64,000 nt of DNA from Aphrocallistes beatrix (taxonomy: Eukaryota > Porifera > Hexactinellida > Sceptrulophora > Aphrocallistidae). Of the stretch, positions 34,885 through 58,702 are shown in pieces. A program made the translations under genes and the position numbers. Where the stretch lies: contig OY725492.1 in assembly GCA_963281255.1 (NCBI GenBank), positions 5,407,132 to 5,471,131 on the forward strand, read 5' to 3'. The notes beneath the pieces are model-generated. The model did not search any database and was not told the DNA's origin. It was given only the letters and a program-made list of their open reading frames with translations. Numbering within the stretch: the stretch's first letter is position 1; each line of letters opens with the position of its first letter.

Positions 34885-35415
34885 ATGGAGCTGAATAGAG
34901 ATATCACGAGCAAAGTGAGTCATCTCTTAACTCAGAGAAGAGATTTGAAACGCAACCTCTACGACCTAATCGAGGAAGTGAAGAAGAAGAGAGCGGATGT
35001 GAATATTCTCAAGGCGACAGGTGTGATGGGTTTGGTGGCAGGGACACTACTGAGTCTAACACCTGAGACGCAGAGGACAGGACAGTTCATTCTCGGAGCA
35101 GGAGTACTCTTATCGGTCGCAAGCAGAGCATACGACTACCACAAGTTAGGACAGTTTAACTCCAGGTTATTGAATGCAATGAAAGTTGATAACAACCTAA
35201 GTGGTGAATTGGAATGTAAACTGAGGGAGGGAGGACACCAGGACAAAATCAAGCTAGAGGGGGTACAGGAGATGGGACTAGATGCATATGAGCTATTAAT
35301 AGGACGCTGGTCCAGGGATAGGAATGTGGAGGCTCTGGTAGCATTGACCAATCATATTCAAGAGGGAATAAAACAGCTGACTGAAATACTGCATCGAGTC
35401 AAACCTGATAACTAA
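34885..35415 (+). CDS. APOL-like protein, short type I (gene A)
   Basis: 176 aa, one exon, starting MELNRDITSKVSHLLTQRRD. The N-terminal basic amphipathic helix/coiled coil is about residues 1-45. A hydrophobic glycine-containing hairpin follows (about 47-83: GVMGLVAGTLLSL, then GQFILGAGVLLSVASRA), then a charged helical tail ending HRVKPDN. The arrangement helix, membrane hairpin, amphipathic tail is that of apolipoprotein-L-family proteins, though much shorter and without the usual C-terminal hydrophobic segment. Known APOLs associate with membranes and lipid and some form ion channels; the role here is unknown. The sequence before the ATG (GATATAATTAG AACATAGA) resembles a splice acceptor. 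Paralogues: E, G and the fragment at 56368. Confidence 0.65.
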   Translation: MELNRDITSKVSHLLTQRRDLKRNLYDLIEEVKKKRADVNILKATGVMGLVAGTLLSLTPETQRTGQFILGAGVLLSVASRAYDYHKLGQFNSRLLNAMKVDNNLSGELECKLREGGHQDKIKLEGVQEMGLDAYELLIGRWSRDRNVEALVALTNHIQEGIKQLTEILHRVKPDN

Positions 35416-36095
35416 TCCTACTATAAATAGATTTGTTTTGTATTCATTGGTATTTGTGTTATTGTTTAAACCCAAGACGTATTCCATCTTTCTCCGTGAA
35501 ATGTATTATAAATAGAAATATAATTGTGATATTGATGGCACATGTACACCTCACTTTTGAGACCCTTGACCTGGGGATGCTTACTTTGGACATTTAAGAT
35601 ATACAGAGCACCTCTAATCCGATTTCATCGGAATCTGTTTTGCAAAATTTATAAATTATATTAGTGCTAGTATAGGAGATGCCTTCATGTCATGATCGGC
35701 GTGCGACGTCCGTCCATATATAGCTACTTACGTCCATCTGCTCGCTCCCGGAATTTATATTGGACGAAATTGCGCAAATTTGGGCCATCTATTCCTTTAT
35801 ATGGTAGAGATTTGAACTTGGGTTCAAATTCTGAAGAACTTTCACACCTTTCCACAAAAGGTGTCAAAATTATTAGCCAATCAGAATAGGGATTTAATTA
35901 ACATTACAGTTGACGTAGATTTTATTGATTAATAGTGATTATACCTGACTCAAAGAGCAATACACAAGCTAAAATCACCTCTAGCATAAAGTAAGGATTA
36001 TTCATATTTTCACACCTTACCTAATGTAACAACATGTGGCAAATATCATTACCAATAAAATTGCAGGGATTTATCGAATAGCAGAATTTAATATA

Positions 36096-36283
36096 CAGTC
36101 GACTCCGCTTAATAGGGTCACATCGGTCAGAGGTCATTCTGCCCCGATTAAGCGGAGGACCCTATTAACCGAAAATATTTAGTATTAGCTTCTATGTGTG
36201 AGAGCTATTCCGGTCCTGCCAAAAGTGGCCCGATTAAGCGGCTGACCCGATTAAACAGTGGCCCTATTAAGCGGAGTCGACTG
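36096..36283. mobile_element. 188-bp pogo-like MITE with visible empty site
   Basis: The ends CAGTCGACTCCGCTTAATAG and CTATTAAGCGGAGTCGACTG are exact complements, flanked by TA. The duplicated segment near 53427 reads TTTAATATAATTGG with no insert, so it arrived after the segmental duplication. Confidence 0.9.
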
Positions 36284-36386
36284 TAATTGGTTAATACGAA
36301 ACGCGTTTCGACTGGAAACGCATTCTGACTGCAATACAAGAGAACAAAGAACAAAAATCATTCATTGAAATATAAAACAAAGAAGC

Positions 36387-36668
36387 ATGATCAATACTCA
36401 ACGAGCCTACAAAAGAAATTATGCTAGTAAATCTGCTTTTGCTGCCAGAAAGATAATAAAATGGTTCAGAACCTTGAGCAGCATGGAACTTTTGCAGATA
36501 AGACCAGAATTGGAGCTCCAAAAGACTGCTAGGTCTCTAGAAGCATCAAACATGCAGAAAACCATCAGAAATCGTGGAGGCGGGATAGAATACATATCAA
36601 TGACTAGACCCTTGTTGAGGATGGATTCTATGTCTCCCAAGTGTATAATATTTAATAATCAAAATTAG
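36387..36668 (+). pseudogene. Relic of transposase HTH domain, left copy
   Basis: A 93-residue frame beginning INTQRAYKRNYASKSAFAAR. Together with the better copy at 53535 it resembles the N-terminal helix-turn-helix of mariner-type transposases (pattern Y-x-N-x-x-S-x-x-x-AR-x-I-x-x-M-x-x-F). Here a frame change after the first third destroys the second helix region. No catalytic DDE/D domain follows. Confidence 0.5.
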
Positions 36669-37181
36669 GTCACTACTTATGGACCACCCTGTACAATGAT
36701 TTCACCCTAAATTTTAAATCTGATTGGCTGAGATTGAGGCCTCCAATCTTGACTGATATCTTTGCATTGACCATCCCAGTTAGCAGAAAAAATAGTAACT
36801 AATATTCATTGAATTACAGGTATCCGGGGTTACGTTCCTGAGAATTGCCGCGAATGGCAAAATCGCGAACGGCAAGACGTTAGTTCAATGAGAATAGTGG
36901 GGTTACGTTCCTAGATTCCAAAAACGATGTTAGATACAGTTTGCTAAATACGTTATTGATTCAATAGCTGAGCTGTAATACTGATACAAACACTGGCACA
37001 AGTAAAATGGTAATAATAAATGAAAGATATAGATCCTCTAATAGCAAACCTAAGTACCATACCTAAATAGTAAAGTATATCCTTACAATCACCAACCAAC
37101 TTCCTTTTAGGCATGATGTAATTATTAGATATAAAATTATGAGTACAAGTAGAAACAATATAGTCTAGTATTAGTATAGAA

Positions 37182-37515
37182 CAGTGTTTCTCAAACTAAT
37201 TTAGCACACCGCCCCCTAATCAGGATTTACTGTCGACACCGCCCCCTCCCCTTACTCATGATCCGTAAGCCATCAACAGTGTAATTATTGTATTAATTAG
37301 TCACGGGAAACCATTGACAGTGATTATTGTACTTTCTAGCTCTAACAACTACAGTGAATGTTGAAATTTGTTTCAAAGATTGACCATCAATATTCTGGAA
37401 TTCACATTTTTTGAGGTTCAAATATCGTAGATGTATTGCTAACAAAACACATTAGCGCCCCCTTACATTATAGCGCCCCCCAACAAGCTTTCACGGCCCA
37501 CTTTGAGAATCACTG
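37182..37515. mobile_element. hAT MITE with CAGTGTTTCTCAAA end
   Basis: Begins CAGTGTTTCTCAAACTA and ends AGTGGG-type complement TTTGAGAATCACTG. Flanks GTATAGAA and GTATATAA are an 8-bp target duplication with one mismatch. It contains the repeated CGCCCCC motif near both ends. It is typical of short hAT elements that appear in many animals. Confidence 0.8.
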
Positions 37516-38187
37516 GTATATAACAATAGAAACAATAAATGATATTGCCAAGATAATATGGAGATACGTATAAAGTTATGTCAAAACGTATATTAACATT
37601 CCATCCTACTTAACCAGAATAAAATTCCCTAAATCTCCAGTAGTTTACCTAGCAAGCAATGTATCTAAAGTATTCTCAGGTTACCCATTATAAAGATATT
37701 CCATTTGAAATATAATCTTCTGTGTGCTTGGAAACTACTGTAAAGTTAGGGAATTTTTATCTTTTCAAAATATGTCTGCGCGCACCAATGATCGATTTAC
37801 TCTAGTCTGTAAGAGGTGTAGCCAAGGTGGTAGCAGGTGTGCAGTGTACACACGATCATTTAAACATTAATTGTATGTAGGTGTCAAATGATATGACTAC
37901 GAATAAGCTCTAAGATCTAAGCGAAATTTTCACATCTCTGCAAAAAAATGGAAAACAATTTTTCACACCTTTTCTGTACAAAATAAATGACTACACTATC
38001 ACAATAGAAATTATTATACAAGTACGACACTACAATAAATACATAGATCGTTATTGCTATTAATACTTCAAGCCACAACTTATGTTTGATATAATCTTAA
38101 ATGTATTATAGTGTATGGCAATAAAAAAGATTATGTGCATATTTTCACACCTTTATATACATATTTTCACACCATTTGAAGAATTTA

Positions 38188-38530
38188 AAAAATATGCTAG
38201 AGACTAGCTTCCAACGGTTGACTTGGGGGTTTTCAAGGGCGTAGATTTCGAATATCATATTTTCGAGTAAATTTGATCATCAATTTGTTTACAATAGATA
38301 CATAAAGTAAACAAATTACAAAAATAGGCTAGATACTTGCTTTCAACGGTTGACATGGGGTTTCCAGAGGTGTATATTTCGAATATCATATTTTCGAGTA
38401 TATTTGCAAATTAATTTGTTTACTTTTGTTGACAATAGATACATAAAGTAAACAAATCTCAAAAAATATGTTAGAAACTTGCTTTAAACCGTTGACATGG
38501 GGTTTTCAGAGGTGTAGATTTAGAATATTA
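38188..38530. repeat. Three tandem imperfect repeats of about 130-140 bp
   Basis: Each unit carries GCTTNNAACNGTTGAC followed by TTTCGAATATCATATTTTCG or a variant. Units start near 38188, 38320 and 38461. A partial duplication of CAATAGATACATAAAGTAAA links them. Non-coding. Confidence 0.75.
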
Positions 38531-38742
38531 TATTATTTCGGACCCATATGAGAAATTATTCGTTAACTTTTGTTAAATAAAATGCAAACCTAGGCTTGTA
38601 ATATGTAATGTTAGGCTTAGAGCTGTATTGATTAGACCTGAATTGTATATATATAAATTAGTTCAATATTTATTGAACAACCCTCGTGTTTTATATTATA
38701 TATATTTTCAAGAACTACTAGACATTTAACTAGTCATCAATC

Positions 38743-39507
38743 ATGGATTTCACAATAGAGGATGTTAGATCGGCAGTTGACGAACTGATAGCTATACGTC
38801 AAAATATGATAGCAGCTCTAACTGAGTATCTAAGGAAAATAAAATTACCAAACATTGTAGTAAAAGGATCCAAAACAGTTTGTAGCATGTACTCAATCGT
38901 AGGCACAGTATTATTATTCACCCCTGCAGCGCCAATAGGTGTTGTTATGGTGGGAACAGGAGTAGCTGGATCTATTATATATTCGGTTAGCGACATAGTG
39001 ATCAGCACACGAATACAAAGTCAGTTACAAGAACTGTTAAAAATAGAAAGGCCGTACGCAGACAAGCTAGAGGATATGATGAGACGTCTGAAGGAGTACA
39101 CTGGTGAAGTGGCTGCCTACCACTCCATGGACTATAACACTGCTGCTGGATTAGTGGTAGCGAGGTTTATCATAGGGGGAGTCAAGTGTCGCGTCATACA
39201 AGTGGCTGAAAGAGGGAGTATTCCAACCGCAAAAGCAGCAGGGAAAGTAATTTCCAAGATAGTTACCTCTCCGAGATTAGCTGGCATCACAGCTGTTAAG
39301 ATCCTAGCGAAGCCTGGAGCCCAAACCGCAGGGAAGATATTCAAGAATGCTTTAGGACCAATTTCTATAGGAATAGATGTGGCAGACATTATCCACACTT
39401 GGGGCAGTAATGCACCAGGTATTGAGGATGTGAAGGAAGTGATAAAGAAGCTGGAAACTGGCATTAAAGATGTGGAGAAGGTTAAGGAAATGTTCCAAGC
39501 TGCTTAA
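38743..39507 (+). CDS. APOL-like protein, type II (gene B)
   Basis: 254 aa, one exon, starting MDFTIEDVRSAVDELIAIRQ. The N-terminal helix is 1-40. A hydrophobic hairpin (48-87) is centred on the turn FTPAAPIG, corresponding to the LAPxTxG turn of APOL membrane segments. Next comes an amphipathic helix (RPYADKLEDMMRRL), a central Ala/Gly-rich region and a C-terminal segment (GPISIGIDVADIIHTW, then a charged helix). That last part parallels the APOL C-terminus, where a hydrophobic DVVYLVY-type stretch precedes a coiled coil. No signal peptide. From about residue 100 to the end it is nearly identical to genes D and H, but its first 90 residues differ. Confidence 0.75.
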   Translation: MDFTIEDVRSAVDELIAIRQNMIAALTEYLRKIKLPNIVVKGSKTVCSMYSIVGTVLLFTPAAPIGVVMVGTGVAGSIIYSVSDIVISTRIQSQLQELLKIERPYADKLEDMMRRLKEYTGEVAAYHSMDYNTAAGLVVARFIIGGVKCRVIQVAERGSIPTAKAAGKVISKIVTSPRLAGITAVKILAKPGAQTAGKIFKNALGPISIGIDVADIIHTWGSNAPGIEDVKEVIKKLETGIKDVEKVKEMFQAA

Positions 39508-40068
39508 TACACTATCCTTTCCATGTTACTAATTTTAGACGTTCAGTATTAATGTTGCAGTTTACGGGCGTGTCAGTATTCATTTTTAGGATGTATTCAC
39601 TGTTTGTATCTCTAAGTAATTTTATTAAATTGGTCGTGTTATATAATCACCAATGTTATGATCTGCATTGCAGCATGAAATGAATTACACGCCCCAGGCA
39701 ACTTCAGAAACTGCATCATGGATTCTCCAATAATGTAAAATCTTAGTTATTGTATTTGGGATTGTTTCCTTGACATTATTAGCACAGCATTATAACCTAC
39801 AATGTTTACTAGTAAAAAAGTATTAGAATTTGTCTTAAAGAAAACCGTAGAATGCTTAGTGGGGACACAGTGTCCCCGATATCGTGGATGTCTCCCAGCT
39901 ATTTTCTATGCAAGTGAAAGCCATCTAACTGCTGGTCATTCTACAGTTAAAATGATATGTTTATTATTGTGCTTATTAAATTAGTTTTAGTAAACATTAT
40001 TAGCATATAATCCAACTACATAATGATAATAAATAATGGCACGTCCATAACCTACATGCAGTAGACCC

Positions 40069-40181
40069 TCGTTAATACAAACACCAGGGACGGTCGATAT
40101 TTGTTCATATTAACCGGAGTGATTTACATTCATTTCCTTCGTAGGGATGAAATATCTGTTCGGTTTAACGAGGTTATACTG
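40069..40181. mobile_element. 113-bp pogo-like MITE
   Basis: Left CAGTAGACCCTCGTTAATAC pairs imperfectly with right TTTAACGAGGTTATACTG. TA follows on the right; the left flank is TG, so the target site has decayed. Confidence 0.6.
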
Positions 40182-40231
40182 TACATTGTTTAGTTAGAAG
40201 CTTTGGTTATTTCGTTAGTCTCTCTGGTATG

Positions 40232-40392
40232 CCACAGTCTCACTGGATGTATGTGTGATTCTGATTCAAACCGCTCCTTGCGGATCACGAATTAACACAT
40301 CAAACAAACAAACAAACATTTCGAGAGCTAATACAAGAGTTAAATTTACTGACCTGTGTCCGTGATGTGGTTGCCAGGAGAACCTACTATTT
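40232..40392 (-). pseudogene. Vestigial copy of SLC41 exon 3 end and donor
   Basis: The minus strand reads GSPGNHITDT followed by a GTCAGT donor at 40354, as at the end of true exon 3 (59228-59270). The homology continues into the intron (AACCGCTCCTTGCGGAT and a CAAA repeat, matching 59111-59220). Upstream the exon similarity stops after about 13 codons. It is either a remnant of a duplicated exon or a locally copied segment. Confidence 0.7.
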
Positions 40393-40888
40393 TAGAGACT
40401 TGATATCCATGGTACGCCTTGGTATCAACATCGAATTGATTAAATGAGAAATCACAAAACGTTGGGTAATCATGCGTAAACCTTGGCACAAATCGCTCAG
40501 TGAAATGAGCTTGTATAATATATAGAAGGCATGTCATAAACCTAAATTTTCTGCTGCAGTCTGATTCCATTAATATAACCGTAAACAAATGACAGCAATC
40601 CTAGTAGAGAACCAGAAAGCAACGTATTGTGTTGGACGAGTCTGCAGACTTACTGTGTCTACAAGGCGCGCAAGAAAGCTTTGTTTGATTTTTGAATTAT
40701 TTGGTGAACCTGTGACTTTTATAAAATCAATTGTTAAGTTAAGTTACAAGCTATCAATAGTTTAGTTTTCAATCGTCAGTCATAACAAACAAGCTAAGCT
40801 AGCTTGTTATTACTTAAATTGGTAGGCTCTATACATTGTAGGAATATAAGGAATATATTATTGGTTAACTCGATTATAGCAATAAAGA

Positions 40889-41098
40889 TAACTAATCAAA
40901 TACATTTCAAGTAAAGATAAAATAAAGAAAATTTGAGGAGTAATTATAGGAAATAATACTAACTAACTAAACGTTCAACTTTAACTCATTTATTTCAATA
41001 ATGGTAACTAATCAAATACATTTCAAATAAAGATAAAATAAAGCAAATTTGAGGAGTAATTATAGGAAATAATACTAACTAACTAAACGTTCAACTAA
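40889..41098. repeat. Two-copy tandem repeat, period 116 bp
   Basis: The segment beginning TAACTAATCAAATACATTTC occurs at 40889 and again at 41005, differing by a few bases. It lies immediately downstream of gene C's stop and may include its 3' untranslated region. Confidence 0.8.
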
Positions 41099-41120
41099 CT
41101 TAGGAGGAAGAAGCTCAGTT

Positions 41121-41912
41121 CTAAGATTCATTTTTGCGAAAATCTTCAGAGAGTTCAAATATCAATTTCGAGATTCTATTAATAGAGCCTTGCAATGATT
41201 CAATTAGTTCATCAATCTTGTCTACTTTCTTATCCACACCCCATTCAATTCCTACTGTTACTACATCGACCAGCGCTGAGACAGGTATACAAATCTTAGT
41301 AAAAGTTGATTTGACTCCAGTTACAGCCACGGATTCCATACACTTCTTATGAAATAACGGGCATTTTACAGCCCGCGCCAATGCTCCAACAAACCTTGAT
41401 CCTTCCCTAACTGCGGAAGGGAATAAATCAACACCGAAACCAAATAGATAAGATGTTAATAAGGAGGCTGCAGTCTTGTAATCAAAACTGTAATGCTGAG
41501 TCAATTCATTCGCGCACTTGCTGAATCTAGTCAACTTTTCTTGACAAATATCCACTTCCTTCCAATCTTCCTTAAGAATATTCAGAACCTCCTTTTTATC
41601 TGTGTCTGTGAGATTACAGATTACTTGAGTTCCTGCTACTGTAACTGTACCTAAGAGAGCCATCCCTACGCCAATTGGTGCCAAAGGTGTGAAAATTAGG
41701 AAGGCTCCTCCAACCGCTCCCAATGCACCTAGGGTTTTGGGAACTAACGAAGTTGCTTTACGTTTTTTGGCATTTTCTTTCACATCTCTTACTTTCCAGA
41801 TCATATCCCTCCTCTTCACAACAAGAGCTTCGAATGATTCCACGAATTCTTCAAGGATAGGGTGTTGTTTCAGTTGATCTAGTTGCTTTTTGGTCATTCC
41901 CAAATGAGTCAT
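41121..41912 (-). CDS. APOL-like protein, type III (gene C)
   Basis: 263 aa, one exon, starting MTHLGMTKKQLDQLKQHPIL. An N-terminal charged helical region (1-50) is followed by a long hydrophobic hairpin (59-100) with the turn FTPLAPIGVG. After this come a helical region (DTDKKEVLNIL), a second moderately hydrophobic part around 140-190, the stretch CIPVSALVDVVTVGIEWGVD and a terminal coiled coil. It is closest to gene F. It is divergently arranged with gene D across 300 bp; a GTATATATAT sequence near 41970 (minus strand) is a plausible TATA box. Expected to bind or insert in membranes by family analogy only. Confidence 0.75.
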   Translation of the reverse strand: MTHLGMTKKQLDQLKQHPILEEFVESFEALVVKRRDMIWKVRDVKENAKKRKATSLVPKTLGALGAVGGAFLIFTPLAPIGVGMALLGTVTVAGTQVICNLTDTDKKEVLNILKEDWKEVDICQEKLTRFSKCANELTQHYSFDYKTAASLLTSYLFGFGVDLFPSAVREGSRFVGALARAVKCPLFHKKCMESVAVTGVKSTFTKICIPVSALVDVVTVGIEWGVDKKVDKIDELIESLQGSINRISKLIFELSEDFRKNES

Positions 41913-42212
41913 AGTGAAAAATAGAATGAGATAACAAAGACAAATATCATGTAGAACCAGAAACCGAATATATATACACTACCATAGCACATAGTACGTA
42001 AATTCCATGTTCTTCAAGTAATCTTGTAAACAACAAGAGGAAGTGGGAAGTTTGGAATGGGAGCTATGTATTGCGCATTAGAACTAGTGAGTGTAGTTGT
42101 ACAACACATGAAAACAAGCATGGGAATTTGATAGTATATATAATATGCCAAATGTCAGAAATATATGTATAATAAAGAAATCATCAATGATTCTTCACTC
42201 AACCTAATAACA
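41913..42212. promoter_or_regulatory. Divergent promoter region between APOL-like genes C and D
   Basis: 300 bp between the two start codons. TATA-like sequences point each way: ATATATATAC near 41970 for C, and AGTATATATAATATG near 42133 for D. The same type III / type II head-to-head layout recurs at 57618-57979. Confidence 0.45.
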
Positions 42213-42979
42213 ATGGAGGATTTCACAAGAGAACAGGTCATTACTGCAGCTGACCAACTGATACAAGTACGACAGCATATAACATCACTTTTGAAAGAGT
42301 ATCTGTCGGAGTTAGAAGAAAAGAGTGACAAAAAAAGAAAATCAAAACAGCCTATCTAGCAACCTCTATTATAGCCACAACATCTTTGTTGACGCCGCTA
42401 GCGCCGATCGGAGCACCAATTATAGTGTTAGGAGCAATTGGGTCTTGTAAAGCATCGTATGATGAGCTGAATTTTGATAGAGAAGTACACAGTCAACTGG
42501 AAATACTGCTGAGGATAGAGAGACCGTACGCAGACAAACTAGGGAATATGCTGACACGTCTGGAGGAGTACACTGGTGAAGTGGCTGCCTACCACTCCAT
42601 GGACTATAACACTGCTACTGCATTAGTGGTAGCGAGGTTTGCCATGGGGGGATTCAAGTGTGGCGTCGTACAAATGGCTGAAAGAGGAAGTATTCCAACC
42701 GCTAAAGCAGCAGGGAAAGTAATTTCTAAGATAGTTACCTCTCCGAGATTAGCTGGCATCACAGCTGTTAGGATTCTAGCGAAGCCTGGAGCCCAAACCG
42801 CAGGGAAGATATTCAAGAATGCTTTAGGACCAATTTCTATAGGAATAGATGTGGCAGACATTATCTACACTTGGGGCAGTAATGCACCAGGTATTGAGGA
42901 TGTGAAGGAAGTGATAAAGAAGCTGGAAACTGGCATTAAAGATGTGGAGAAGGTTAAGGAAATGTTCCAAGCTGCTTAG
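42213..42979 (+). pseudogene. APOL-like type II gene D, frameshift in an A-run
   Basis: The first frame starts MEDFTREQVITAADQLIQVR and reads to about codon 43. A frame change in or near the run ACAAAAAAAGAAAA (about 42328-42341) is needed to enter the second frame (TSLLTPLAPIGAPI), which then runs open to the stop at 42979. The C-terminal part is almost identical to B and H, including RGSIPTAKAAGKVISKIV. A single base slip in a homopolymer is the only visible lesion, so an assembly error, a recent mutation or slippage during expression are all possible. An ATG at 42165 would add 16 residues, but paralogues start at M-x-DFT. Confidence 0.75.
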
Positions 42980-43738
42980 CACACTCTCCTTTCTATGTTA
43001 CTAATTTTACAAGTTCAGCATTAATGTTGCAGTTAAAATGAGTGCCAGTATTCATTTTTAGGATGTCATGACCCGCGCCATGTTTTATCGGCAGTGGGTG
43101 TCGTAAGAGGGATTTCTCTGAAAGTGGGTGTCCATTTATGGAGGGATACATATTGCACAATATGATAAAATAGGGGGTAGTGGGTGTCTGGACACCCAGA
43201 ACACCCCCGGTGGCGCCGGCCCTGGATGTGGTTAGATAATATATTAATTATTTGTCTAATTAGCTTTTTTCAAATTGGTGAAATGAACAGTTGTCGAGAT
43301 AGATCGACAACAAATGAGTTCGATCAGCTGCAGGCGTCCTCTTTTCATTCTGATCTCTGCAAAATTTTAGCAGGACATTAGTCCTACACACTGAAAAGCG
43401 GACAATTCCACTTTTTAGAAATTTCTCGCGGGACGTCTCAGTCAAAAATGGGAGAGTTGGCAAGTATGTCTTTTCACTTATTCAGTACAGAGAGAGTCAC
43501 GGAGGTCTCAGGGTTTGATAGACTAGGCGATGTTGAAGTTTTCGGGCTCGGTCTGCTCCATGGAATCAGGAGTAGGATAAGATACTCCCATGAGACCGCA
43601 CTGGTGTTTTTTTGGGGGGGTGGGGGGGCACGCTCCATTCAATTACAATTCTCCCTTATCAACTACTTAGGGATTATTTACTCAATTTTATAAAACTTGT
43701 ATCGATATCCTTACTATTAAAACTCGATTAATATATAT

Positions 43739-45775
43739 CATAGCCTACTCTAATAATGCCTCACAGTAAAATAACCAAGGATGAAGTAGTAGCCGAATGG
43801 ATTAATACACGATTAGCCTAAAATCGTTAACCATGTAGAATAGGCATTAAGAATGTATTACCAGCATATATAAACATGGCATCAAAGTACATATATCCGC
43901 TGTCAAAATTTCGATTAGTCATCATATCATTGCGCAACAGGCCATTTTATGCACGATTTTGGCAATTTTCTAAGCTGTTTTAAGCCTACTTCCAAAAGTT
44001 ATTAAGGTAGAGTTTTTGTGTAGAACTAAGATTAGTACGAGTTGATTTGAAAAATTTATAATTTTTCAATGGAATGCTGCTACATTCCTACGTTGCTATG
44101 GTAAAGCATTTTGATCAGTTTGAGCCATATCCTGCAAACTGTAAGAATTAGGTCTTCAAATTTGATCGTATTTGATAGGCAATTGGCTACTTCCTATTAG
44201 GTAATAAAATCACAGACTACAGAGTTATGCGACAATTTAGTGTTTTGGTCACATTCTTAAAATCAACCCATAACTCAAAACTCGTTGAATTTAGAAGTTC
44301 AAGTTGTATTATTACCTAATAGGAAGTAGTCCATTACTTATCAAACACAATCAAATTTGAAGCTCTAATCATTAATCCTTAAATTACCTGGGGTCATTTC
44401 TATTTATAGCAAAGGCCCCACACTTCTAAGGTTTCCCCGCCCAAAATGACTTAACCGGAAATGAGTTAGCAAAAAAGTTTGCATGAAATGGCCCAAACTG
44501 ACCAAAATGCTTTACCATAGCAACGCAGGAATGTAACAACATTCCATTGAAAAGTTCTAAATTTTTCAAATCAACTCGTACTAATCTTGGTTCTACACAA
44601 AAATCACACCTTAATATCATTTAGAAATAGGGTTAAAACAGCTTAGAAAATTGCCAAAATCGTGCTTAAAATGACCTGTTGCGCAATGATATGATGACGA
44701 GTCGAAATTTTGACAACGGATATATGTACTTTGATACCATGTTTATATATGCTGGTTATACATTCTTAATGACTATTCTGCATGGTTAACGATTTTAGGC
44801 TAATCGTGTATTAATCCATTCGGCTACGGGTTGACTGAATAAGGCCGAATTTTCAAACTGGAATAAGGCCGAATGATATTCATGACTGGAAAAAGGCCGA
44901 ATTGTCAATCCGGAATAAGGCCGAATGATATTCAAGACTGGAATAAGGCCGAATTGTCAATCCAGAATAAGGCCGAATGATATTCAAGACTGGAATAAGG
45001 CCGAATTGTCAATCCAGAATAAGGCCGAATGATATTCAAGATTGGAATAAGGCCGAATTGTCAATCCGGAATTAGGCCGAATTATATTCATGACTGGAAT
45101 AAGGCCGCATTTTCACAACTGTTTGAGTCGAGTGATATATGCGTAATACTAAAATAAATAAGTGACAAACAAGTTGTGTATACATTTTGCTTAAAAACAC
45201 CTCACCAGGCGAATTTTCAAAATATTCCATGCCAAAACCCCTTAAAATCTCCCTGTTTCCCAACAAACCAAGTGATGCTCCCAATCGACCCTCCATTCTT
45301 TAGTTCACAAATTAAAAACCATTCTTCCTCTAGATCCAAAATGAAAATTCGACCTTATTCCAGTGTTGAATATTGGGCCTTATTCCAGTCATGAATTTAA
45401 TTCGGCCTTATTCCGGATTGACAATTCGGCCTTATTCCAGTTTTGAAAAATATTCGGCCTTATTCCAATTTTGCAGTTCGGCCTTATTCCAGTTTTGAAA
45501 ATTATTCGGCCTTATTCCAATTTTGCAGTTCGGCCTTATTCTAGTCATGAATTTAATTCGGCCTTATTCCGGATTGACAATTCGGCCTTATTCCAGTTTT
45601 GAAAATTATTCGGCCTTATTCCAATTTTGCAGTTCGGCCTTATTCCAGTTTTGAAAATCATTCGGCCTTATTCCAATTTTTGCAATTCGGCCTTATTCAG
45701 CTTTCCCTCGGCTACTACTTCATCCCTAGTCTATGATTTTCAGTCTACTGTGAGGCATTATTAGAGTAGGCTATG
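43739..45775. mobile_element. Long-terminal-inverted-repeat element with nested foldback insertion
   Basis: Begins CATAGCCTACTCTAATAATG and ends CATTATTAGAGTAGGCTATG, flanked by TATATAT-type sequence. The arms stay complementary for about 370 bp (left about 43739-44110; right about 44500-44820 and 45716-45775). The right arm is interrupted by the foldback element 44828-45707. A one-arm relative lies at 14135-15165. There is no transposase. Confidence 0.75.
44828..45707. mobile_element. Foldback element, copy 1
   Basis: Starts GGGTTGACTGAATAAGGCC and ends complementary to GGGAAAGCTGAATAAGGCC, with an exact 8-bp target duplication TCGGCTAC. The left arm has about 11 units of GGAATAAGGCCGAAT and the right arm about 14 units in inverse orientation. 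They flank a unique centre of about 230 bp. The uninterrupted target (CCATTCGGCTACTACTTCAT) is present reversed near 43784. The 8-bp duplication suggests hAT-type mobilisation, but the source transposase is not in the window. Confidence 0.9.
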
Positions 45776-46322
45776 TATATATATAGAGAGAGCGCCCCCC
45801 TTTTCTTTTAGCAAAACACTACTGACAATAGGACTAAATATTGGTTAACTATGAATAAGCACACCAGTCTGCAGTGAATAGAATAGTGATAGCAAGAGTG
45901 TAACATTAGATTTCTTATTCATGGCCCATAGCGTACTGTTTTGTATATGGAGAATATGGACATACTGGAGAGGAGCATAGTATATATATATATGTATTGT
46001 TTAAACAACAAATCAGTTATTATGTAGATACCTGAAGATTCAACCATTATGTATATAATAACCAAGGTTGCAACCAATGCTCTGATTGTGATCATAGGTA
46101 TCATGCCCCTATAAATGGAATCTGAAAAGTGTAGAATCCATTTGATACTCTAGATGATCTGCGATCCTAGCCTATAACGGCATGGAAAATCCTTTACATA
46201 AGATTACGCAACATATATTTCATTATATGAATGCAAGATTCATTTGGTACTATGGTTATTGATTGAATATTCTTACTTTTAAAACTCTATTATTGCGCAT
46301 CCATATATATATATATATATAC

Positions 46323-46358
46323 AGTAGAACTCGGTTAGTACGTACTAACCGAGTTCTA

Positions 46359-47056: not shown

Positions 47057-47578
47057 ATGGAGCTGAACAGAGATATCACGAGCAAAGTGACTCAGCTCAT
47101 ATCTCAGAGGAGAGATTTGAAACGCAACCTCTACGACCTAATCGAGGAAGTGAAGAAGAAGAGAGCGGATGTGAATATTCTCAAGGCGACAGGTACCATG
47201 GGTTTGGTGGCAGGGACACTACTGTATCTAATATCTGAGACAGGACAGTTCATTTTCGGAGCAGGACTACTCTTATCGGTTGCAAGCAGAGCATACGACT
47301 ACCACAAGTTGGTACAGTTTAACTCCAGGTTATTCAATGCAATGAAAGTTGATAACAACCTAAGTGGCGAATTGGAATGTAAACTGAGGGAGGGGGGACA
47401 CCAGAACATAATCAAGCTAGAAGAGGTACAGGAGATTGGACTAGATGCATACGAGCTATTAATAGGACGCTGGTCCAGGGATAAGAATGTGGAGGCTCTG
47501 GTAGCATTGACCAATCAGATTCAAGAGGGAATAAAACAGCTGACTGAGATACTGCATCGAGTCAAACCTGATAACTAA
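47057..47578 (+). CDS. APOL-like protein, short type I (gene E)
   Basis: 173 aa, one exon, starting MELNRDITSKVTQLISQRRD. About 90 percent similar to gene A by eye, with three residues fewer in the hairpin region (LLYLISETGQFIFGAG). The membrane hairpin and charged tail (HRVKPDN end) are intact. The sequence before the ATG (TTTATAATTAG AACATAGA) is conserved with genes A and G. No partner gene of the C/D type follows directly; the next gene is F, type III. Confidence 0.65.
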   Translation: MELNRDITSKVTQLISQRRDLKRNLYDLIEEVKKKRADVNILKATGTMGLVAGTLLYLISETGQFIFGAGLLLSVASRAYDYHKLVQFNSRLFNAMKVDNNLSGELECKLREGGHQNIIKLEEVQEIGLDAYELLIGRWSRDKNVEALVALTNQIQEGIKQLTEILHRVKPDN

Positions 47579-49351: not shown

Positions 49352-50167
49352 ATGACTCATTTGGGAATGACCAGAGAGCATTTCAATGAATTAAAAAATA
49401 GCCCAGCGCTTGAGGAATTCGTGAAATCATTCGAAGTTCTTGTTGGGAAGAGGAGAGATATGATCTGGAAAATAAGAGATATAAAAGAAAATGCCAAAAA
49501 ACATAAAGCAGACTCGTTAATTGTCACTTCACTAGGCGCATTGGGAGCAGTTGGAGGAGCCATTCTAACTTTCACACCTTTGGCACCAATTGGCATAGGA
49601 ATGGCTGCCTTAGGTACAGGTACAATAGCGGTTACTCAAGGCATCTGTTATCTCACAGACACAGATAAAAAAAAGGTTCTGAATATTCTTAAGGAAGATT
49701 GGCAGGAAGAGAAAATTTGTGCAAATATGCTGGATACATTCAATGGGGATGCGAAAGAATTGGCTTTAATGTATGGTTTTGATTATAACACTGCAGCCGC
49801 CTTATTAACAGGTTATCTAGTTAGTTTTGGTATTGATGCATTACCTTCTGGAGTTAGGGAGGGAGGAAAGTTCTTTGCAGCAGGATTGAGGATGGCTAAC
49901 AAATGCCCGATATTTCAGAAGAAGTGTATCGAATACGTGGCTCTAACTGGAGTCAGATCAATTACTACAAAGGTCTGTATACCTGTCTCAGCGCTGATCG
50001 ATGTAGTAACAGTAGGAATTGATTGGTGTGTGGATAAGAAAGTAGACAAGATCGATGAAAAGCTTGAATCATTGCAGAGCTCAATTGATAAAATCTCGAA
50101 GTTGATATATGCACTTTCTGAAGATTTTCGCAAAAATGGATCTTGGAAAAAAGCTCCTTCTTCTTAA
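49352..50167 (+). CDS. APOL-like protein, type III (gene F)
   Basis: 271 aa, one exon; I chose the ATG at 49352 (MTHLGMTREHFNELKNSPAL) to match gene C. The 10-residue upstream extension would start at TTG. The charged N-terminal helix is followed by a hydrophobic hairpin around 59-100 with FTPLAPIGIGMA, the DTDKKKVLNIL helix, CIPVSALIDVVTVGIDW and a terminal coiled coil ending in a basic tail (NGSWKKAPSS). It is a full-length paralogue of C on the opposite strand, showing that members of the cluster have been inverted as well as duplicated. Confidence 0.75.
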   Translation: MTHLGMTREHFNELKNSPALEEFVKSFEVLVGKRRDMIWKIRDIKENAKKHKADSLIVTSLGALGAVGGAILTFTPLAPIGIGMAALGTGTIAVTQGICYLTDTDKKKVLNILKEDWQEEKICANMLDTFNGDAKELALMYGFDYNTAAALLTGYLVSFGIDALPSGVREGGKFFAAGLRMANKCPIFQKKCIEYVALTGVRSITTKVCIPVSALIDVVTVGIDWCVDKKVDKIDEKLESLQSSIDKISKLIYALSEDFRKNGSWKKAPSS

Positions 50168-51479: not shown

Positions 51480-51487
51480 GAATGGAG

Positions 51488-52259
51488 GGAAAAGCTGAAT
51501 AAGGCCGAATGGAATAAGGCCGAATTGCAAAAAAGGCCGAATTATTTTCAAAACTGGAATAAGGCCGAACTGCAAAATTGGAATAAGGCCGAATAATTTT
51601 CAAAACTGGAATAAGGCCGAACTGCAAAATTGGAATAAGGCCGAATAATTTTCAAAACTGGAATAAGGCCGAACTGCAAAATTGGAATAAGGCCGAATAA
51701 TTCTCAAAACTGGAATAAGGCCGAATTGTCAATCCGGAATAAGGCCGAATTAAATTCATGACTGGAATAAGGCCGAATTTTCAACACTGGAATAAGGCCG
51801 AATATTCACTTTGGATCTAGAGGAAGAATGGTTTTAATTTGTGAAGAATGGAGGGTCGATTGGGAGCATCACTTGGTTTGTTGGGAAACAGGGAGATTTT
51901 AAGGGGTTTTGGCATGGAATATTTTGAAAATTCGCCTGGTGAGGTGTTTTTAAGCAAAATGTATACACAACTTGTTTGTCACTTATTTATTTTAGTATTA
52001 CGCATATATCACTCGACTCAAACAGTTGTGAAAATGCGGCCTTATTCCAGTCATGAATATAATTCGGCCTAATTCCGGATTGACAATTCGGCCTTATTCC
52101 AATCTTGAATATCATTCGGCCTTATTCCGGATTGACAATTCGGCCTTATTCCAGTCATGAATATCATTCGGCCTTATTCCTGATTGACAATTCGGCCTTA
52201 TTCCAATCTCATTTTCGACCTTATTCCAGTTTGAAAATTCGGCCTTATTCAGTCAACCC
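51488..52259. mobile_element. Foldback element, copy 2, inserted at the ATG of gene G
   Basis: Same family as 44828-45707 but in opposite orientation and 772 bp long. The 8-bp target duplication GAATGGAG is exact (51480-51487 and 52260-52267). The central region is so similar to copy 1 that a 74-codon frame in it is unchanged between copies. The target contains the start codon of an APOL-like type I gene, so the ATG is duplicated on both sides. Confidence 0.9.
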
Positions 52260-52261
52260 GA

Positions 52262-52576
52262 ATGGAGCTGAATAGAGATATCAGCAGAGCATTCGACTAC
52301 CACAAGTTGGGACAGTTTAACTCCAGGGTATTCAATGCCATGAGAGTTGATAACAACCTAAGTGGTGAATTGGAATGTAAACTGAGGGAGGGAGGACACC
52401 AGGACAGAATCAAGCTAAAAGGGGTACAGGAGATTGGACTAGATGCATATGAGCTATTAATAGGACGCTGGTCCAGGGATAGGAATGTGGAAGCTCTGGT
52501 AGCATTGACCAATCAGATTCAAGAGGGAATAAAACAGCTGACTGAAATACTGCATCGAGTCAAACCTGATAACTAA
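52262..52576 (+). pseudogene. APOL-like type I gene G, hairpin deleted and promoter displaced
   Basis: Open frame of 104 aa: MELNRDI is joined directly to SRAFDYHKLGQ, an in-frame loss of 72 residues compared with gene A. This removes most of the N-terminal helix and the entire membrane hairpin. The tail is intact to HRVKPDN. Its normal leader (ATAATTAG AACATAG) now lies 772 bp upstream on the far side of the foldback element, where a second, orphan ATG remains. It is probably non-functional; a soluble remnant protein cannot be ruled out. Confidence 0.75.
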
Positions 52577-55023
52577 TCCTACTATAAATAGATTTATTTT
52601 TATATCCATTAGTATTTGTGTTATTGTTAAACCCAAGACGTATTCCATATTTTTTCCGTAAAATGTATTATAAATAGAAATATAATTGTGGTGTTGATGG
52701 CACATGTACACCTCACTTTTGGACCCTTGACCTGGGGATGCTTACTTTGGACATTTAAGATATACAGAGCACCTCTAATTCGATTTCATCTTTTATCACC
52801 TATATTAATAATAAATAAATAAATTTCTACTTTCCATGATTAGGGGAGCGAAATGGTTAACTTATTTTTTGAATCTCTAAATAAGTTGATATCAAAAATC
52901 CCAGAAAGCCACTCCTAGGGATTTATTTCAACTAAATGCCCGATTGGTTAAATACTTGGAGGAATCTGTTTTGCAAAATTTATAAATTATATTAGTGCTA
53001 GTATAGGAGATGCCTTCATGTCATGATCGGCGTGCGACGTCCGTCCATATATAGCTACTTACGTCCATCTGCTCGCTCCCGGAATTTATATTGGACGAAA
53101 TTGCGCAAATTTGGGCCATCTATTCCTTTATATGGTAGAGATTTGAACTTGGGTCCAAATTCTGAAGAACTTTCACACCTTTCCACAAAAGGTGTCAAAA
53201 TTATTAGTCAATCAGAATCCAGGGATTTAATTAACATTACAGTTGACGTAGATTTTATTGATTAATAGTGATTATACCTGACTCAAAGAACAATACACAA
53301 GCTAAAATCACTCTCTAGCGTAAAGTAAGGATTAGTCATATTTTCACACCTACCTAATTGTAACAACATGTGGCAAATATGATTACCAATAAAATTGCAG
53401 GGATTTAATCGAATAGCAGAATTTAATATAATTGGTTAATACGAAACGCGTTTCGACTGGAAACGCATTCTGACTGCAACACAAGAGAACAAAGAACAAA
53501 AAATCATTCATTGATACTATGAAAACAAAGAAGCATGATCAATACTCAACGAGCCTACAAAAGAAATTATGCTAGTAAATCTACTTTTGCTGCAAGAACG
53601 ATAAAGAAAATGGTTCAGAACTTTGAGCAGCATGGAACTGTTGCAGATAAGACCAGAATTGGAGCTCCAAAGACTGCTAGATCTAGAAAGCATCAAACAT
53701 GCAGAAAACCATCAGAAATCGTGGAGGCAGGATATAGCACATCAGCAATGACTAGACCCATATTGAGGATGGACTCTATGTCTCCCAAGTGCATAATATT
53801 TAATAATCAAAATTAGGTCACTACTAATGGACCACCCTGTAAAATGATTTCACTCTAAATTTGAAATCTGATTGGCTGAGATGGAAGCCTCCAATCTTGA
53901 CTGATATCTAAGAATATAAATTGAGTTACTTTTGGTTTGTTTCAGTATCTGGTGATAATCGTTACAGTTTGCTTGACCATCCCAGTTAGCAGAAAAAATA
54001 GTAACTAATATTCATTGAATTACAGGTATCCGGGGTTACGTTCCTGAGAATTGCCGCGAATGGCAAACTCGCGAACGGCGAGGGCTGTATACTCACTCAG
54101 CTTCTCTTAATTAACTTGTTGGATTGTCAAAACGTATATTAACATTCCATCCTACTTAACCAGAATAAAATTCCCTAAATCTCCAGTAGTTTACCTAGCA
54201 AGCAATGTATCTAAAGTATTCTCAGGTTACCCATTATAAAGATATTCCATTTGAAATATAATCTTCTGTGTGCTTGGAAACTACTGTAAAGTTAGGGAAT
54301 TTTTATCTTTTCAAAATATGTCTGCGCGCACCAATGATCGATTTACTCTAGTCTGTAAGAGGTGTAGCCAAGGTGGTAGCAGGTGTGCAGTGTACACATG
54401 AGCATTTAAACATTAATTGCGATACAAATCGTTAGAATTGAAGGGTCATGAAACTCTATGTCTTACTGTGTGACACGACGAGATAAGAGAGAGTGTGTGT
54501 GACAGCACACTACTACCGCTAGTTAAATCTTATAATATATATTATGGTTAATATAGTCTAGTGGCCTACTGGAGTTTTGTCCCATTCAAAGGAAAGATAA
54601 TAGGATACTACCAAAAATCAAATTTGTACACTTCAATCATAATATAAGTTGACCAACTGCCTAGATATTAAAATTTAGGAAGTTATCGCACACATAATGC
54701 GTTTCCAATTACCGTAAACGTATGTAAGATACAGATTATGGGAATCAAAAATGTTATACATTATTCCAAGATTAATTCGTCTGTCTACACAGACAGACGA
54801 ATTAATTGACGCAGTTTACCGTCAATGCTAAAGAGGGATATCATCACAATAGCGGTATGACAGAGACGGGATTTATCAGATATAGCATTTCATAATAAAC
54901 GGGCTTACACACATACATGGTTCCATAATAGAAGAGAAATGCTATAAAGTCAAGAGAAGAAACAACTAATTATTATATATATTTCCAAGAACTATTACCA
55001 AGTTCTTTGGGACACCATCAATC
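52577..55023. repeat. Spacer between genes G and H
   Basis: Mostly duplicated sequence: the block-1 partner to 54080, then 54124-54420 (partner of 37567-37873), then about 600 bp of AT-rich sequence. Near 54777-54805 a short palindrome ATTAATTCGTCTGTCT with its complement is present. The transposase relic is listed separately. Confidence 0.55.
53535..53816 (+). pseudogene. Relic of transposase HTH domain, right copy
   Basis: 93 codons with INTQRAYKRNYASKSTFAAR, then IKKMVQNFEQHGTVADKTR, then GAPKTARSRK. This is the N-terminal helix-turn-helix pattern seen in mariner-type transposases and their relatives (F-E-x-x-G-x-V-x-D-K-x-R-x-G-x-P-x-T-x-R). The frame after residue 70 lacks any catalytic domain. 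It is better preserved than the duplicate at 36387. Confidence 0.6.
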
Positions 55024-55791
55024 ATGGGGCATTTCACACGAGGAGATTTGATAACCGCAGCTGATGAACTAATAGATATACGTCAAAGGATGATATCAGC
55101 TCTAACTGAGTATCAGGAAGACATCGAACGATCGAACGTTCCAATAAAAAGATACAAAACATGTAATAGCTTGTACTCAATCGTAGGCACAGTATTACTA
55201 TTCACCCCTGCAGCGCCAATAGGTGTTGGCATGGTGGTAGGAGGAGCAGCTAACTCTATTATATATTCGGTTGGAGACATAGTGATGAGCAGACGAATAC
55301 AAAGTCAGTTGCAAGAACTGTTGAAAGAAGAGAGGCCGTACGCAGACAAGCTGGAGGATATGATGAGACGTCTGGAGGAGTACACTGGTGAAGTGGCTGC
55401 CTACCACTCCATGGACTATAACACTGCTGCTGGATTAGTGGTAGCGAGGTTTATCATAGGGGGAGTCAAGTGTCGCGTCATACAAGTGGCTGAAAGAGGG
55501 AGTATTCCAACCGCTAAAGCAGCAGGGAAAGTAATTTCCAAGATAGTTACCTCTCCGAGATTAGCTGGCACCACAGCTGTTAAGATCCTAGCTAAGCCTG
55601 GAGCCCAAACCGCAGGGAAGATATTCAAGAATGCTTTAGGACCAATTTCTATAGGAATAGATGTGGCAGACATTATCTACACTTGGAGCAGTGATGCACC
55701 AGGTATTGAGGATGTGAAGGAGGTGATAAAGAAGCTGGAATCTGGCATTAAAGATGTGGAGAAGGTTAAGGAAATGTTCCCAGCTGCTTAA
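55024..55791 (+). CDS. APOL-like protein, type II (gene H)
   Basis: 255 aa, one exon, starting MGHFTRGDLITAADELIDIR. The hairpin is at about 49-88 (VGTVLLFTPAAPIGVGMVVG), then RPYADKLEDMMRRLEEYTGE and the conserved C-terminal half ending VEKVKEMFPAA. From about residue 95 it differs from gene B at only a handful of positions, and about 330 bp of 3' flank is also shared. The first 45 residues and the hairpin are clearly different. The region just upstream lacks the acceptor-like ATAATTAG; a TATTATATATATTTCC stretch lies about 50 bp before the ATG. Confidence 0.75.
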   Translation: MGHFTRGDLITAADELIDIRQRMISALTEYQEDIERSNVPIKRYKTCNSLYSIVGTVLLFTPAAPIGVGMVVGGAANSIIYSVGDIVMSRRIQSQLQELLKEERPYADKLEDMMRRLEEYTGEVAAYHSMDYNTAAGLVVARFIIGGVKCRVIQVAERGSIPTAKAAGKVISKIVTSPRLAGTTAVKILAKPGAQTAGKIFKNALGPISIGIDVADIIYTWSSDAPGIEDVKEVIKKLESGIKDVEKVKEMFPAA

Positions 55792-56367
55792 TACACTCTC
55801 CTTTCCATGTTACTAATTTTAGACGTTCAGTATTAATGTTGCAGTTTACGGGCGTGTCAGTATTCATTTTTAGGATGTATTAACTGTTTGTATCTCTAAG
55901 TAATTTTATTAAATTGGTCGTGTTATATAATCACCAATGTTATTATCTGCATTGCAGCATGAAATGAATTACACGCCCCAGGCAACTTCAGAAACTGCAT
56001 CATGGATTCTCCAATAATGTAAAATCTTAGTTATTGTATTTGGGATTGTTTGCTTGACATTATCAGCACAGCATTATAACCTACAATGTTTACTAGTAAA
56101 AAAGTATTAGAATTTGTCCGAAAGAAAAACAAAGCTTGAATTATGCCCTAAATCACATGAAAATTGACTTTATTCCAAACTGAAAATGCTCCCTTTCACT
56201 TTGCTCTTATAACGGCAGTTATGAGCTGTCACGTTTATGAACTATATAAACCTTAGTTGATCAATTCATAAGTTATTTTATTAGAATAATTCCAAGCTTG
56301 ATTATAAATAGTAAGGACAAATTCCAGTACTTTTTTTAGGACAAACTTAATAACTGATTTAGGACAA
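55792..56367. repeat. 3' flank of gene H, duplicate of that of gene B
   Basis: 55792-56120 repeats 39508-39840 closely; beyond that the two copies diverge. About 56130-56360 is unique AT-rich sequence leading into the type I fragment. Confidence 0.65.
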
Positions 56368-56505
56368 CTAGATGCATACGAGCTATTAATAGGACGCTGG
56401 TCCAAGGATAGGAATGTGGAGGCTCTGTTGGCATTGACCAATCAGATTCAAGAGGGAATAAAAAAGCTGACTGAAATACTACATCGAGTCAAACCTGATA
56501 ATTAA
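56368..56505 (+). pseudogene. C-terminal fragment of an APOL-like type I gene
   Basis: Encodes LDAYELLIGRWSKDRNVEAL through to HRVKPDN and a stop, matching the last 45 residues of genes A, E and G, followed by the same 3' flank for about 30 bp. There is no N-terminal part. The upstream junction (TTAGGACAACTAGATG) shows where the truncated copy was joined. Confidence 0.85.
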
Positions 56506-56791
56506 TCCTACTATAAATAGATTTTCATTAGCATTTGTGTTATTTTTAGTGCAGCTCCAGTATTGGAGACGCCTTATGTCATGATCAGTGTCGAACGTCC
56601 TTCTGCTCGCTCCTGGAAATTCTATTGGACCAAATTGCAATTTTGGTCATATACTCCTTATATGGTGGAGAGTAGCAGACTTGTTAACACCTTTAAAAGT
56701 CCCTGGATTTCAACAGAAAGTTTATTCATAACCCAGCCTTATTACACACCAAAAACTAACTTTACTATTCACTAAGATGGCAAATGCCATA

Positions 56792-57617
56792 CTATCTAAA
56801 ACCAACAACTAAATAAGCTAAACAAGCTAAACAAAAAAATAGTAAGACATAAACATATGGACTACAGGGTAGAGGGAAAGTTCGAGTTTGTTTGTAAAGT
56901 ACGCCATTCCGGAAAGATTCGGAGAGTTCATAGATGAAATTGGAGATTTCGCGGATGGATTTTTGCACATCTACAATTGTTTTATCGATGTCTTCAACGT
57001 TTGGTTCAACGTTCCATGTCCTGTATGAATGACAAGCGTCTCGTATCAACACACCGGCATTCAGAAGTGGTAGACAGCGTAGACAGCAGCCGAATGTACC
57101 AACCCTCGCCATGATGTTAGTATAGTGGCGAGCGAAATCTAGTCCGGCAATGGCTATTTCTCCAGAGGGAAGTGCCATGGATTTAGCTAATAACGAAGCT
57201 GCTTCATTCCTATCGAGTTCGCAGTTCTCAGCTAACATGCTGAAGCTATCCAAAAGATTTCGGCACTTCGTTAGTTCTTCTGTCTCCGTTAACAATCTGA
57301 CGGATCTTCTCATGTGTACTGTATCTAGCGTAGTGAAGAAGCTGTCCCCAGCATTTACTGCAGAGCCTGCGAGAACCAGAGGAGCACCCAAAGGAGTGAA
57401 ACTCGAGATTACCCCCCCCACTATGGATCCGAAAAAACCTAGTGATCTGACTATATTAGAATTACCATTGCTTCTCCATGTTCCATCCTTCAAATATTTC
57501 CCTCAGAATACTCCGTCTCTTATTCACAAGTGCTTTGAATGCACTTACGAAGTCCTCAACTTCAGGATGCATCTTCATTACTTGGATCTCTTTATTTCTC
57601 ATTCCGAAATTAGTCAT
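56792..57617 (-). pseudogene. APOL-like type III gene J, one frameshift
   Basis: Starts at the ATG at 57617 (MTNFGMRNKEIQVMKMHPEV), aligning with the start of genes C and F. It runs about 45 codons to REIFEG, where a one-base shift near 57490 is needed to join the long second frame. That frame carries the hairpin (LGFFGSIVGGVISSFTPLGA), a central helical region, TVEDID-like coiled coil (NVEDIDKTIVDVQKSIREIS) and then an unusual C-terminal hydrophobic segment (VYVLLFFCLACLAYLVVGFR), a probable extra membrane helix not seen in C or F. It is strongly diverged, and may be a pseudogene or carry a sequence error. Confidence 0.65.
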
Positions 57618-57979
57618 CGTAGAAGATACGGGCGAGGTTAATGATAGCAGGCGACCAGTTAGTGAATATGGAAGATTATTATCAGTTTATTTATTCTATT
57701 CTTCCAAGGACCATGGGATCACGCGCATACTTACGTACTAAGATGTATGTTTATTCATTGCATTCTGAGATGCGAAATATGAAATTTGTCATAGACAATT
57801 CATCTCAATTATTTTTTAACACCTAGAGAAACCTCAGGCATACTGTAAACAAATTTATTCTACGGAAAATAAAGATTCGGAATTTGACGCAAACATGAAT
57901 TTTGCACCATCAGTGACATCACCGTATATATCACCACAACCTATAAAGACTGCCAGTCTGTTCAAGAGATAAACTACGC
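57618..57979. promoter_or_regulatory. Divergent promoter region between APOL-like genes J and K
   Basis: 362 bp separating the start codons of a type III gene (minus) and a type II gene (plus), the same layout as C/D. Before gene K there are CCGTATATATCACC (57921) and CCTATAAAGACTG (57940), plausible TATA boxes. Confidence 0.4.
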
Positions 57980-58702
57980 ATGAAGGATTTCACACTTGAA
58001 GATGTTATTTCTGCAGCTGATGAATTGATAGTTATACGCATCAAGTTAATAGCAATCTTAAAAGATGGACTAGATAAGATAGGAAGTCAGAGAACTAAAA
58101 TTAACGCTTGCAAAACAGTGTTTTCATCCTACTCTATCCTAGGCACGGTGGCATTGTTCACACCCGCGGCACCTTTAGCACCTGCCTTGATAGGGGGAGG
58201 CATAGCCGGATCTCTTGTAGGCTCAATCGGAGATTGTTTGATGGAGAGAAAAGTACAGAATGAGGTACATGAATTGTTGGAGAAAGAGAGGCCATACGCA
58301 GAAAGGTTAGAGGATATGTTGATGCGGCTGAAGGAACACACGAGTGAAGTAGCTACCTACCACTCAATGGATTATGACACTGCAGCTCAACTAGTAGTGC
58401 GAAGGTTTGCCCTCGGGGGATTCAAAGGCGTCGTTTGTATGACAAAAAGAGGAAGTATTCCAACTGCAAACGCATCCGGAAAAGTTGTTTCCAAGATTGG
58501 TACCTCCTCCAATATAGTTGGCCTCACAGCTGCTAAGATCCTAGCTAAGCCTGGAGCCCAAACCGCAGGAAAGATATTCAAGAATGCTCTAGGACCAATT
58601 TCTATTGGATTAGACGTGGCAGACATTATCCACACTTGGAATAGTGATGCCCCAGGAGTTAAGGATGTGAAGGAAGTGATAGAGAAGCTAGAAGGACATT
58701 AA
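57980..58702 (+). CDS. APOL-like protein, type II (gene K)
   Basis: 240 aa, one exon, starting MKDFTLEDVISAADELIVIR. The hairpin has the turn FTPAAPLAPALIGGGIAG; then come RPYAERLEDMLMRLKEHTSE, RGSIPTANASGKVVSKI and ALGPISIGLDVADIIHTW. It is the most divergent intact type II member, with differences spread over its whole length, and it ends early (IEKLEGH), lacking the last 15-20 residues of B and H. It probably represents the older lineage that escaped recent homogenisation. Confidence 0.75.
   Translation: MKDFTLEDVISAADELIVIRIKLIAILKDGLDKIGSQRTKINACKTVFSSYSILGTVALFTPAAPLAPALIGGGIAGSLVGSIGDCLMERKVQNEVHELLEKERPYAERLEDMLMRLKEHTSEVATYHSMDYDTAAQLVVRRFALGGFKGVVCMTKRGSIPTANASGKVVSKIGTSSNIVGLTAAKILAKPGAQTAGKIFKNALGPISIGLDVADIIHTWNSDAPGVKDVKEVIEKLEGH

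Follow-up and report, generated by a model that had tools for sequence, protein, structure and literature searches.

A cluster of apolipoprotein L-like genes in the glass sponge Aphrocallistes beatrix, with a likely remote relationship to APOL and signs of gene conversion among its type II members

The stretch of DNA analysed here, hereafter the window, comprises 64,000 nucleotides of the Aphrocallistes beatrix genome (G000:C6:5407132-5471131; assembly of 100.5 Mb in 28 contigs) and holds, between positions 34885 and 58702, a cluster of eleven related loci of three subfamilies, consisting of seven open single-exon open reading frames (ORFs), two frameshifted genes, one gene devoid of the hairpin region and one fragment. 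The encoded proteins are likely to be remotely homologous to apolipoprotein L (APOL), and the main new feature of the cluster is gene conversion of the 3' halves of its type II members. Its neighbours are, on one side, a TBC-domain gene at 32358-33875 and, on the other, an exon of an MgtE-type transporter at 59640-60143. The eleven loci proposed in an earlier, sequence-only reading of this DNA are borne out, the limits 34885 and 58702 being, in the ORF listing, the start of locus A and the end of locus K. The genome was also taken to be that of an invertebrate, with which five TGF-beta domain matches in the genome are compatible, since they indicate an animal genome. A search for Wnt, which reads single exons, returned no match, as was the case for its controls, and does not bear on this point. 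The members of the cluster are as follows:

34885-35415, plus strand: A, type I, intact ORF of 176 amino acids (aa); ORF call and whole-genome matches to A
38743-39507, plus strand: B, type II, intact ORF of 254 aa, turn FTPAAPIG; ORF, genome search and structure model
41121-41912, minus strand: C, type III, intact ORF of 263 aa, turn FTPLAPIG; ORF and genome search
42213-42979, plus strand: D, type II, frameshifted once close to an A7 run, 3' half apparently converted with B and H
47057-47578, plus strand: E, type I, intact ORF of 173 aa; ORF and genome search
49352-50167, plus strand: F, type III, intact ORF of 271 aa, turn FTPLAPIG; ORF and genome search
52262-52576, plus strand: G, type I, 104 aa, without the hairpin region, palindromic repeat element at its start
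55024-55791, plus strand: H, type II, intact ORF of 255 aa, turn FTPAAPIG; ORF and genome search
56368-56505, plus strand: C-terminal fragment of type I, 45 codons; genome search
56792-57617, minus strand: J, type III, frameshifted once ahead of the hairpin, transmembrane segment at the C-terminus
57980-58702, plus strand: K, type II, intact ORF of 240 aa, turn FTPAAPLA; ORF and genome search

K is 14-15 residues shorter than B and H and has a shorter C-terminal end. In both D (42337-42345) and J (about 57480), the frameshift site lies just 5' of the hairpin, and an assembly error is possible in the case of D because of the nearby A7 run.

Full-length members display the same order of elements, namely a helix of about 45-65 residues, a hydrophobic Gly-rich hairpin, a long helix, a second and moderately hydrophobic stretch (about 202-228 in C and F, about 134-155 in B) and a C-terminal helix; type I proteins are devoid of most of the middle region. 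The hairpin is hydrophobic in every member tested, with a Kyte-Doolittle peak of up to 2.13, and of about 1.55 in type I. Unlike other members, J (2.62; 56792-57313, minus strand) and a relative encoded on contig 8 (2.54) end in a C-terminal transmembrane segment. The turn FTPxAPxG, which had been ascribed to the family as a whole, is exact in B, C, F and H (4 of the 11 loci), varies in D, J and K, and is absent in type I. No signal peptide was apparent on inspection of the sequences, carried out without a predictor. In the structure model of B, which has a mean predicted local distance difference test score (pLDDT) of 53.7, helices 5-58 and 64-126 flank the FTPAA turn and shorter helices are also present, the hairpin itself being of low confidence, with a pLDDT below 50 for residues 36-84. 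The model of F is weaker (mean pLDDT 42.4), and both are too poor to support or refute an APOL fold. Comparison of the B model with a viral structure library returned nothing significant.

The division into three subfamilies, I (A, E, G and the fragment), II (B, D, H and K) and III (C, F and J), proved real in both profile alignments and a tree. Whole-genome searches with B, F, A and the contig-9 and contig-8 proteins as queries, the match counts of which are lower bounds, listed two relatives outside the cluster: a type II-like ORF of 325 aa on contig 9 (C9; E 3.7e-24) and a type III-like ORF of 286 aa on contig 8 (C8; L010:1480-2340; E 3.6e-21). Since these diverged relatives retain an open frame, the family seems to be more than a product of chance. 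The profiles of type II plus C9 and type III plus C8 align with an hhalign probability of 98.5% over 229 columns, and type I aligns with the remaining members with a probability of 93.3% over 58 columns, which correspond to the helix and the first hairpin arm. The tree separates I, II plus C9 and III plus C8, grouping C9 with type II (96/93) and C8 with type III (97/93), although C8 and C9 form long branches and, in the tree without type I, the long-branch joins were flagged by the tool. Because C9 joins type II and C8 joins type III, these two types probably diverged before the expansion of the cluster.

Segmental duplication is evident within the cluster. The B segment with its flanks (38735-39844) recurs at H (55016-56128) with 93% identity, and, with 93-99% identity, sequence blocks of the A-B interval (35630-37873) recur in the G-H interval (52961-54419). 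Inside the latter duplicated blocks lie two ORFs of 93 aa, at 36387-36668 and 53535-53816; in the second, the only one of the pair scanned, the helix-turn-helix domain DUF4817 is recognised (E 7.8e-6), and both are perhaps transposon remnants.

Divergence among type II members is distributed unevenly along the gene. The identity between B and D is 48-57% in comparison windows at 38797-39036 and 87-100% at 39097-39516, and their synonymous divergence is as high as 1.04 for the hairpin and as low as 0.04 for the C-terminal part (Fisher p = 2e-11, with rounded counts). The corresponding values for B and H are 0.43 for the N-terminal helix, 0.09 for the hairpin, 0.29 over the 30 codons that follow and 0.03 for the C-terminal part; therefore, the B and H hairpins have diverged less than that of D. 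K is 90-93% identical to B from 39277 to 39396 and 60-78% identical in the comparison windows just before. This combination of low 3' and high 5' divergence is best explained by gene conversion that made the 3' halves of B, D and H alike and left their 5' parts divergent.

The description of the cluster as fast-changing holds in part only, as the whole-gene ratio of nonsynonymous to synonymous divergence (dN/dS), computed for ten pairs, ranges from 0.33 to 0.78 (0.58 for A/E, 0.78 for B/H and 0.78 for C/F) and exceeds 1 in none of them. Positive selection on the B/H hairpin was considered but is not supported, its dN/dS of 2.14 deriving from 16.2 nonsynonymous and 2.8 synonymous differences (Fisher p = 0.56, with rounded site counts); diversifying selection on the type II 5' parts lacks support.

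The relationship to APOL was addressed by comparing profiles of the family with human APOL2 and APOL6, the only reference sequences used. As positive controls, both were recognised by Pfam as ApoL with 430.9 and 278.2 bits, respectively, and 102 of 297 aligned positions are identical in the alignment of the pair. Four family profiles were built, A1 without type I, A2 from nine members, A3 from B, H and C9, and A4 from F, C and C8, and each was accompanied by 300 decoys in which columns were shuffled in windows of 8 or 15, keeping local composition. A2 aligns with the APOL pair collinearly over 223 and 260 columns in the two modes, with hhalign scores of 49.5 in local mode (probability 88.5%) and 43.8 in global mode (93.5%), and no decoy reaches these scores in either mode (best decoys 33.2 and 21.6). 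The same holds for A1 (36.8 local, 32.8 global) and A3 (34.3 local, 30.9 global), with 0 of 300 decoys in either mode. Moreover, among 178 real-protein targets (160 single E. coli ORFs, being those of at most 900 residues out of 163 found, 15 E. coli paralogue pairs and three APOL targets), A2 gives the three top ranks, whichever the mode, to the APOL pair, APOL6 and APOL2 in that order, with 22.3 and 13.5 as the highest scores of any E. coli target. A1 likewise places the pair on top in either mode, followed by APOL6, with APOL2 in sixth and thirteenth place. In a smaller control of 45 targets without the pair, APOL6 comes first for A2 and A1, and APOL2 second and fourth, respectively. With HMMER, A1 gives 15.0 bits to APOL6, a score reached by none of 600 shuffles. 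On balance, and with modest confidence, we take the cluster to represent a small, lineage-restricted family remotely homologous to APOL, whose proteins insert into membranes and probably reside inside the cell.

The family resembles APOL (PF05461; vertebrate APOL1-6) in its collinear profile similarity, in the hydrophobic hairpin between helices and in the C-terminal helix, and also in the habit of forming multigene clusters, as described for APOL genes (PMC13177371). In addition, the APOL6 sequence used here closes with a hydrophobic stretch, and the same is true of J and the contig-8 protein. The differences are that the cluster lies below Pfam detection, that the region preceding the hairpin is shorter, that type I is devoid of most of the middle and that the FTPxAPxG turn belongs to the cluster family.

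Tandem duplication with several broken copies and conversion between copies is commoner in immune families, which speaks against the reading of the cluster as an APOL-homologous family that handles lipids or remodels membranes as a housekeeping task without any defence role. This reading is nonetheless a serious contender, if somewhat short of an even chance, since whole-gene dN/dS is below 1 in every pair and other studies tie an apol3-annotated sponge gene, overexpressed in females, to reproduction and lipid transport (PMC9012834) and connect a coral APOL-domain protein with lipid use (PMC11196755). Conversely, a mussel study places an 'Apolipoprotein L' transcript at the top of a hemocyte non-shared list that also contains defensin and mytilin (PMC4581086), and APOLs are described, in a review, as lipid-interacting, infection-linked and fast evolving, with an APOL3 hairpin flanked by long helices (PMC13177371). 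A gene of the algal virus TsV-N1, TsV_04, likewise bears the ApoL family name (PMC4517135). The sponge, coral, mussel and TsV-N1 proteins share the family name with APOL, and searches of one open-access library found nothing pairing 'APOL-like' with 'invertebrate'. A defence role, which had been suggested earlier and would rest on vertebrate APOLs, on the mussel hemocyte transcript (PMC4581086) and on the pattern of duplication and conversion, is about evenly balanced with a lipid or housekeeping role.

Alternatively, the cluster could encode helical hairpin proteins unrelated to APOL that converged on a similar layout, since membrane insertion is commonly achieved by a succession of helix, Gly-rich hairpin and helix. 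Several results favour this alternative or weigh against homology. The Pfam search that had been proposed as a check failed to place PF05461 among the matches of 12 proteins (10 of the 11 loci of the window, D and J being represented by their longest open stretch, and the two relatives elsewhere) and three family consensuses, in a listing down to E 10 in which HMMER filters drop most matches above about 0.1. None of the scanned proteins scores above the gathering cut-off of PF05461 (25.9 bits), and as Pfam defines the family they are not ApoL members. Type III alone gives no APOL signal, because the scores of A4 (25.1 local and 12.1 global) are reached by 23 and 4 of 300 decoys. HMMER scores of single sequences are mixed: APOL2 obtains 3.0 bits with A1 (reached by 39 of 600 shuffles), APOL6 and APOL2 obtain 11.8 (3 of 600) and 4.7 bits (30 of 600) with A2, 2.5 (101 of 600) and 6.7 bits (4 of 600) with A3, and 2.5 (129 of 600) and 3.2 bits (33 of 600) with A4, and reversed APOL2 scores above the real protein for A1, A2 and A3, as does reversed APOL6 for A3. 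A1 against APOL2 alone gives a probability of 1.1%, BLASTP gave nothing useful, and sequence-profile searches of the PDB had best E values of 0.0078 (A1) and 0.043 (A2), with no APOL chain among the 15 and 17 matches listed. The B model, poor as it is, matched generic bundles and no APOL among PDB structures. Furthermore, cluster members have about 45-65 residues ahead of the hairpin, so that they seem to lack a large part of the N-terminal domain of APOL; in APOL1 this domain (D61-T172) is described as comprising four amphipathic helices that precede the hairpin (PMC8316464), and one long helix is predicted in B. Finally, the E. coli controls include few proteins of helix-hairpin-helix layout. 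Nevertheless, the similarity extends collinearly into the C-terminal region and does not survive the shuffling of columns within windows of 8 or 15, and convergence appears unlikely. The proposed APOL relationship is thus supported in part: the profile-profile similarity withstands the controls and is too remote to be caught by the Pfam model.

The reading of the cluster as NheB/MakA-type helical pore-forming toxins, either acquired or convergent, is highly improbable, since the hairpin has weak NCBIfam matches (to NheB for F 54-99, E 0.052; to MakA for B 13-99, E 0.13) that score 12.6 and 11.2 bits, where the cut-offs are 500 and 320, no signal peptide is seen on inspection, and the prokaryote and viral scans yielded no confirmed relative.

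Other origins and families were also considered. For a phage or bacterial origin, the A3 pattern matched 285 viral-contig and 74 prokaryote-genome stretches, of which none was confirmed by tblastn. Library families, scanned with five proteins each, were rejected as well, with best E values of 0.018 (PHROGs), 0.041 (NCBIfam) and 0.00054 (PADLOC) scattered over unrelated models. The best PADLOC match is that of residues 108-270 of the contig-9 protein to LeoA (E 0.00054, 17.1 bits), restricted to one of the five scanned proteins, the other four giving other or weaker models, including Cas1e for B and PDC-M09A for F (E 0.0012 each). Residues 5-88 of the A1 consensus weakly match DUF677 (PF05055; E 0.0068, 15.8 bits), under the cut-off of 29.1 bits, and this domain is listed for none of the 12 real sequences.

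Adjoining the cluster is a second tandem array, at 1472-25881 on the minus strand, made up of twelve ORFs with NHL-type sequence, each a single exon of at least 180 aa, the Pfam NHL match having been checked on one of the twelve. Palindromic elements occur at 43789-45709, with arms of 352 nt (43789-44140 and 44476-44827) that are 92% complementary, and at 51498-52249; one of them sits at the start of G and is rich in AATAAGGCCGAAT units, of which the window contains 32 exact copies against 0 expected.

Returning to the cluster as a remotely APOL-homologous membrane family, its mechanism would most likely consist of membrane insertion with remodelling or permeabilisation. By analogy with APOL, the helix-hairpin-helix arm would insert into the membrane, the C-terminal half could mediate self-association or partner binding, and the resulting oligomers may reshape membranes of the host cell or of microbes or make them permeable, a mode of action that has been proposed for vertebrate APOLs. 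Given their missing middle, type I proteins could act as modulators, and J and the contig-8 relative, with their transmembrane tail, may be membrane-anchored. A further idea, which we regard as doubtful, is that conversion keeps the C-terminal assembly half of type II proteins near-identical while hairpins diverge on this shared module, giving rise to mixed membrane-attack complexes. If this were true, APOL-type defence would exist far outside vertebrates. The APOL literature, as far as searched, is mostly mammalian. A divergent invertebrate branch, invisible to Pfam and marked by tandem copies and gene conversion, would yield outgroup sequences of both hairpin and C-terminal half, and the cluster would make a pre-vertebrate origin of APOL-type membrane attack testable.

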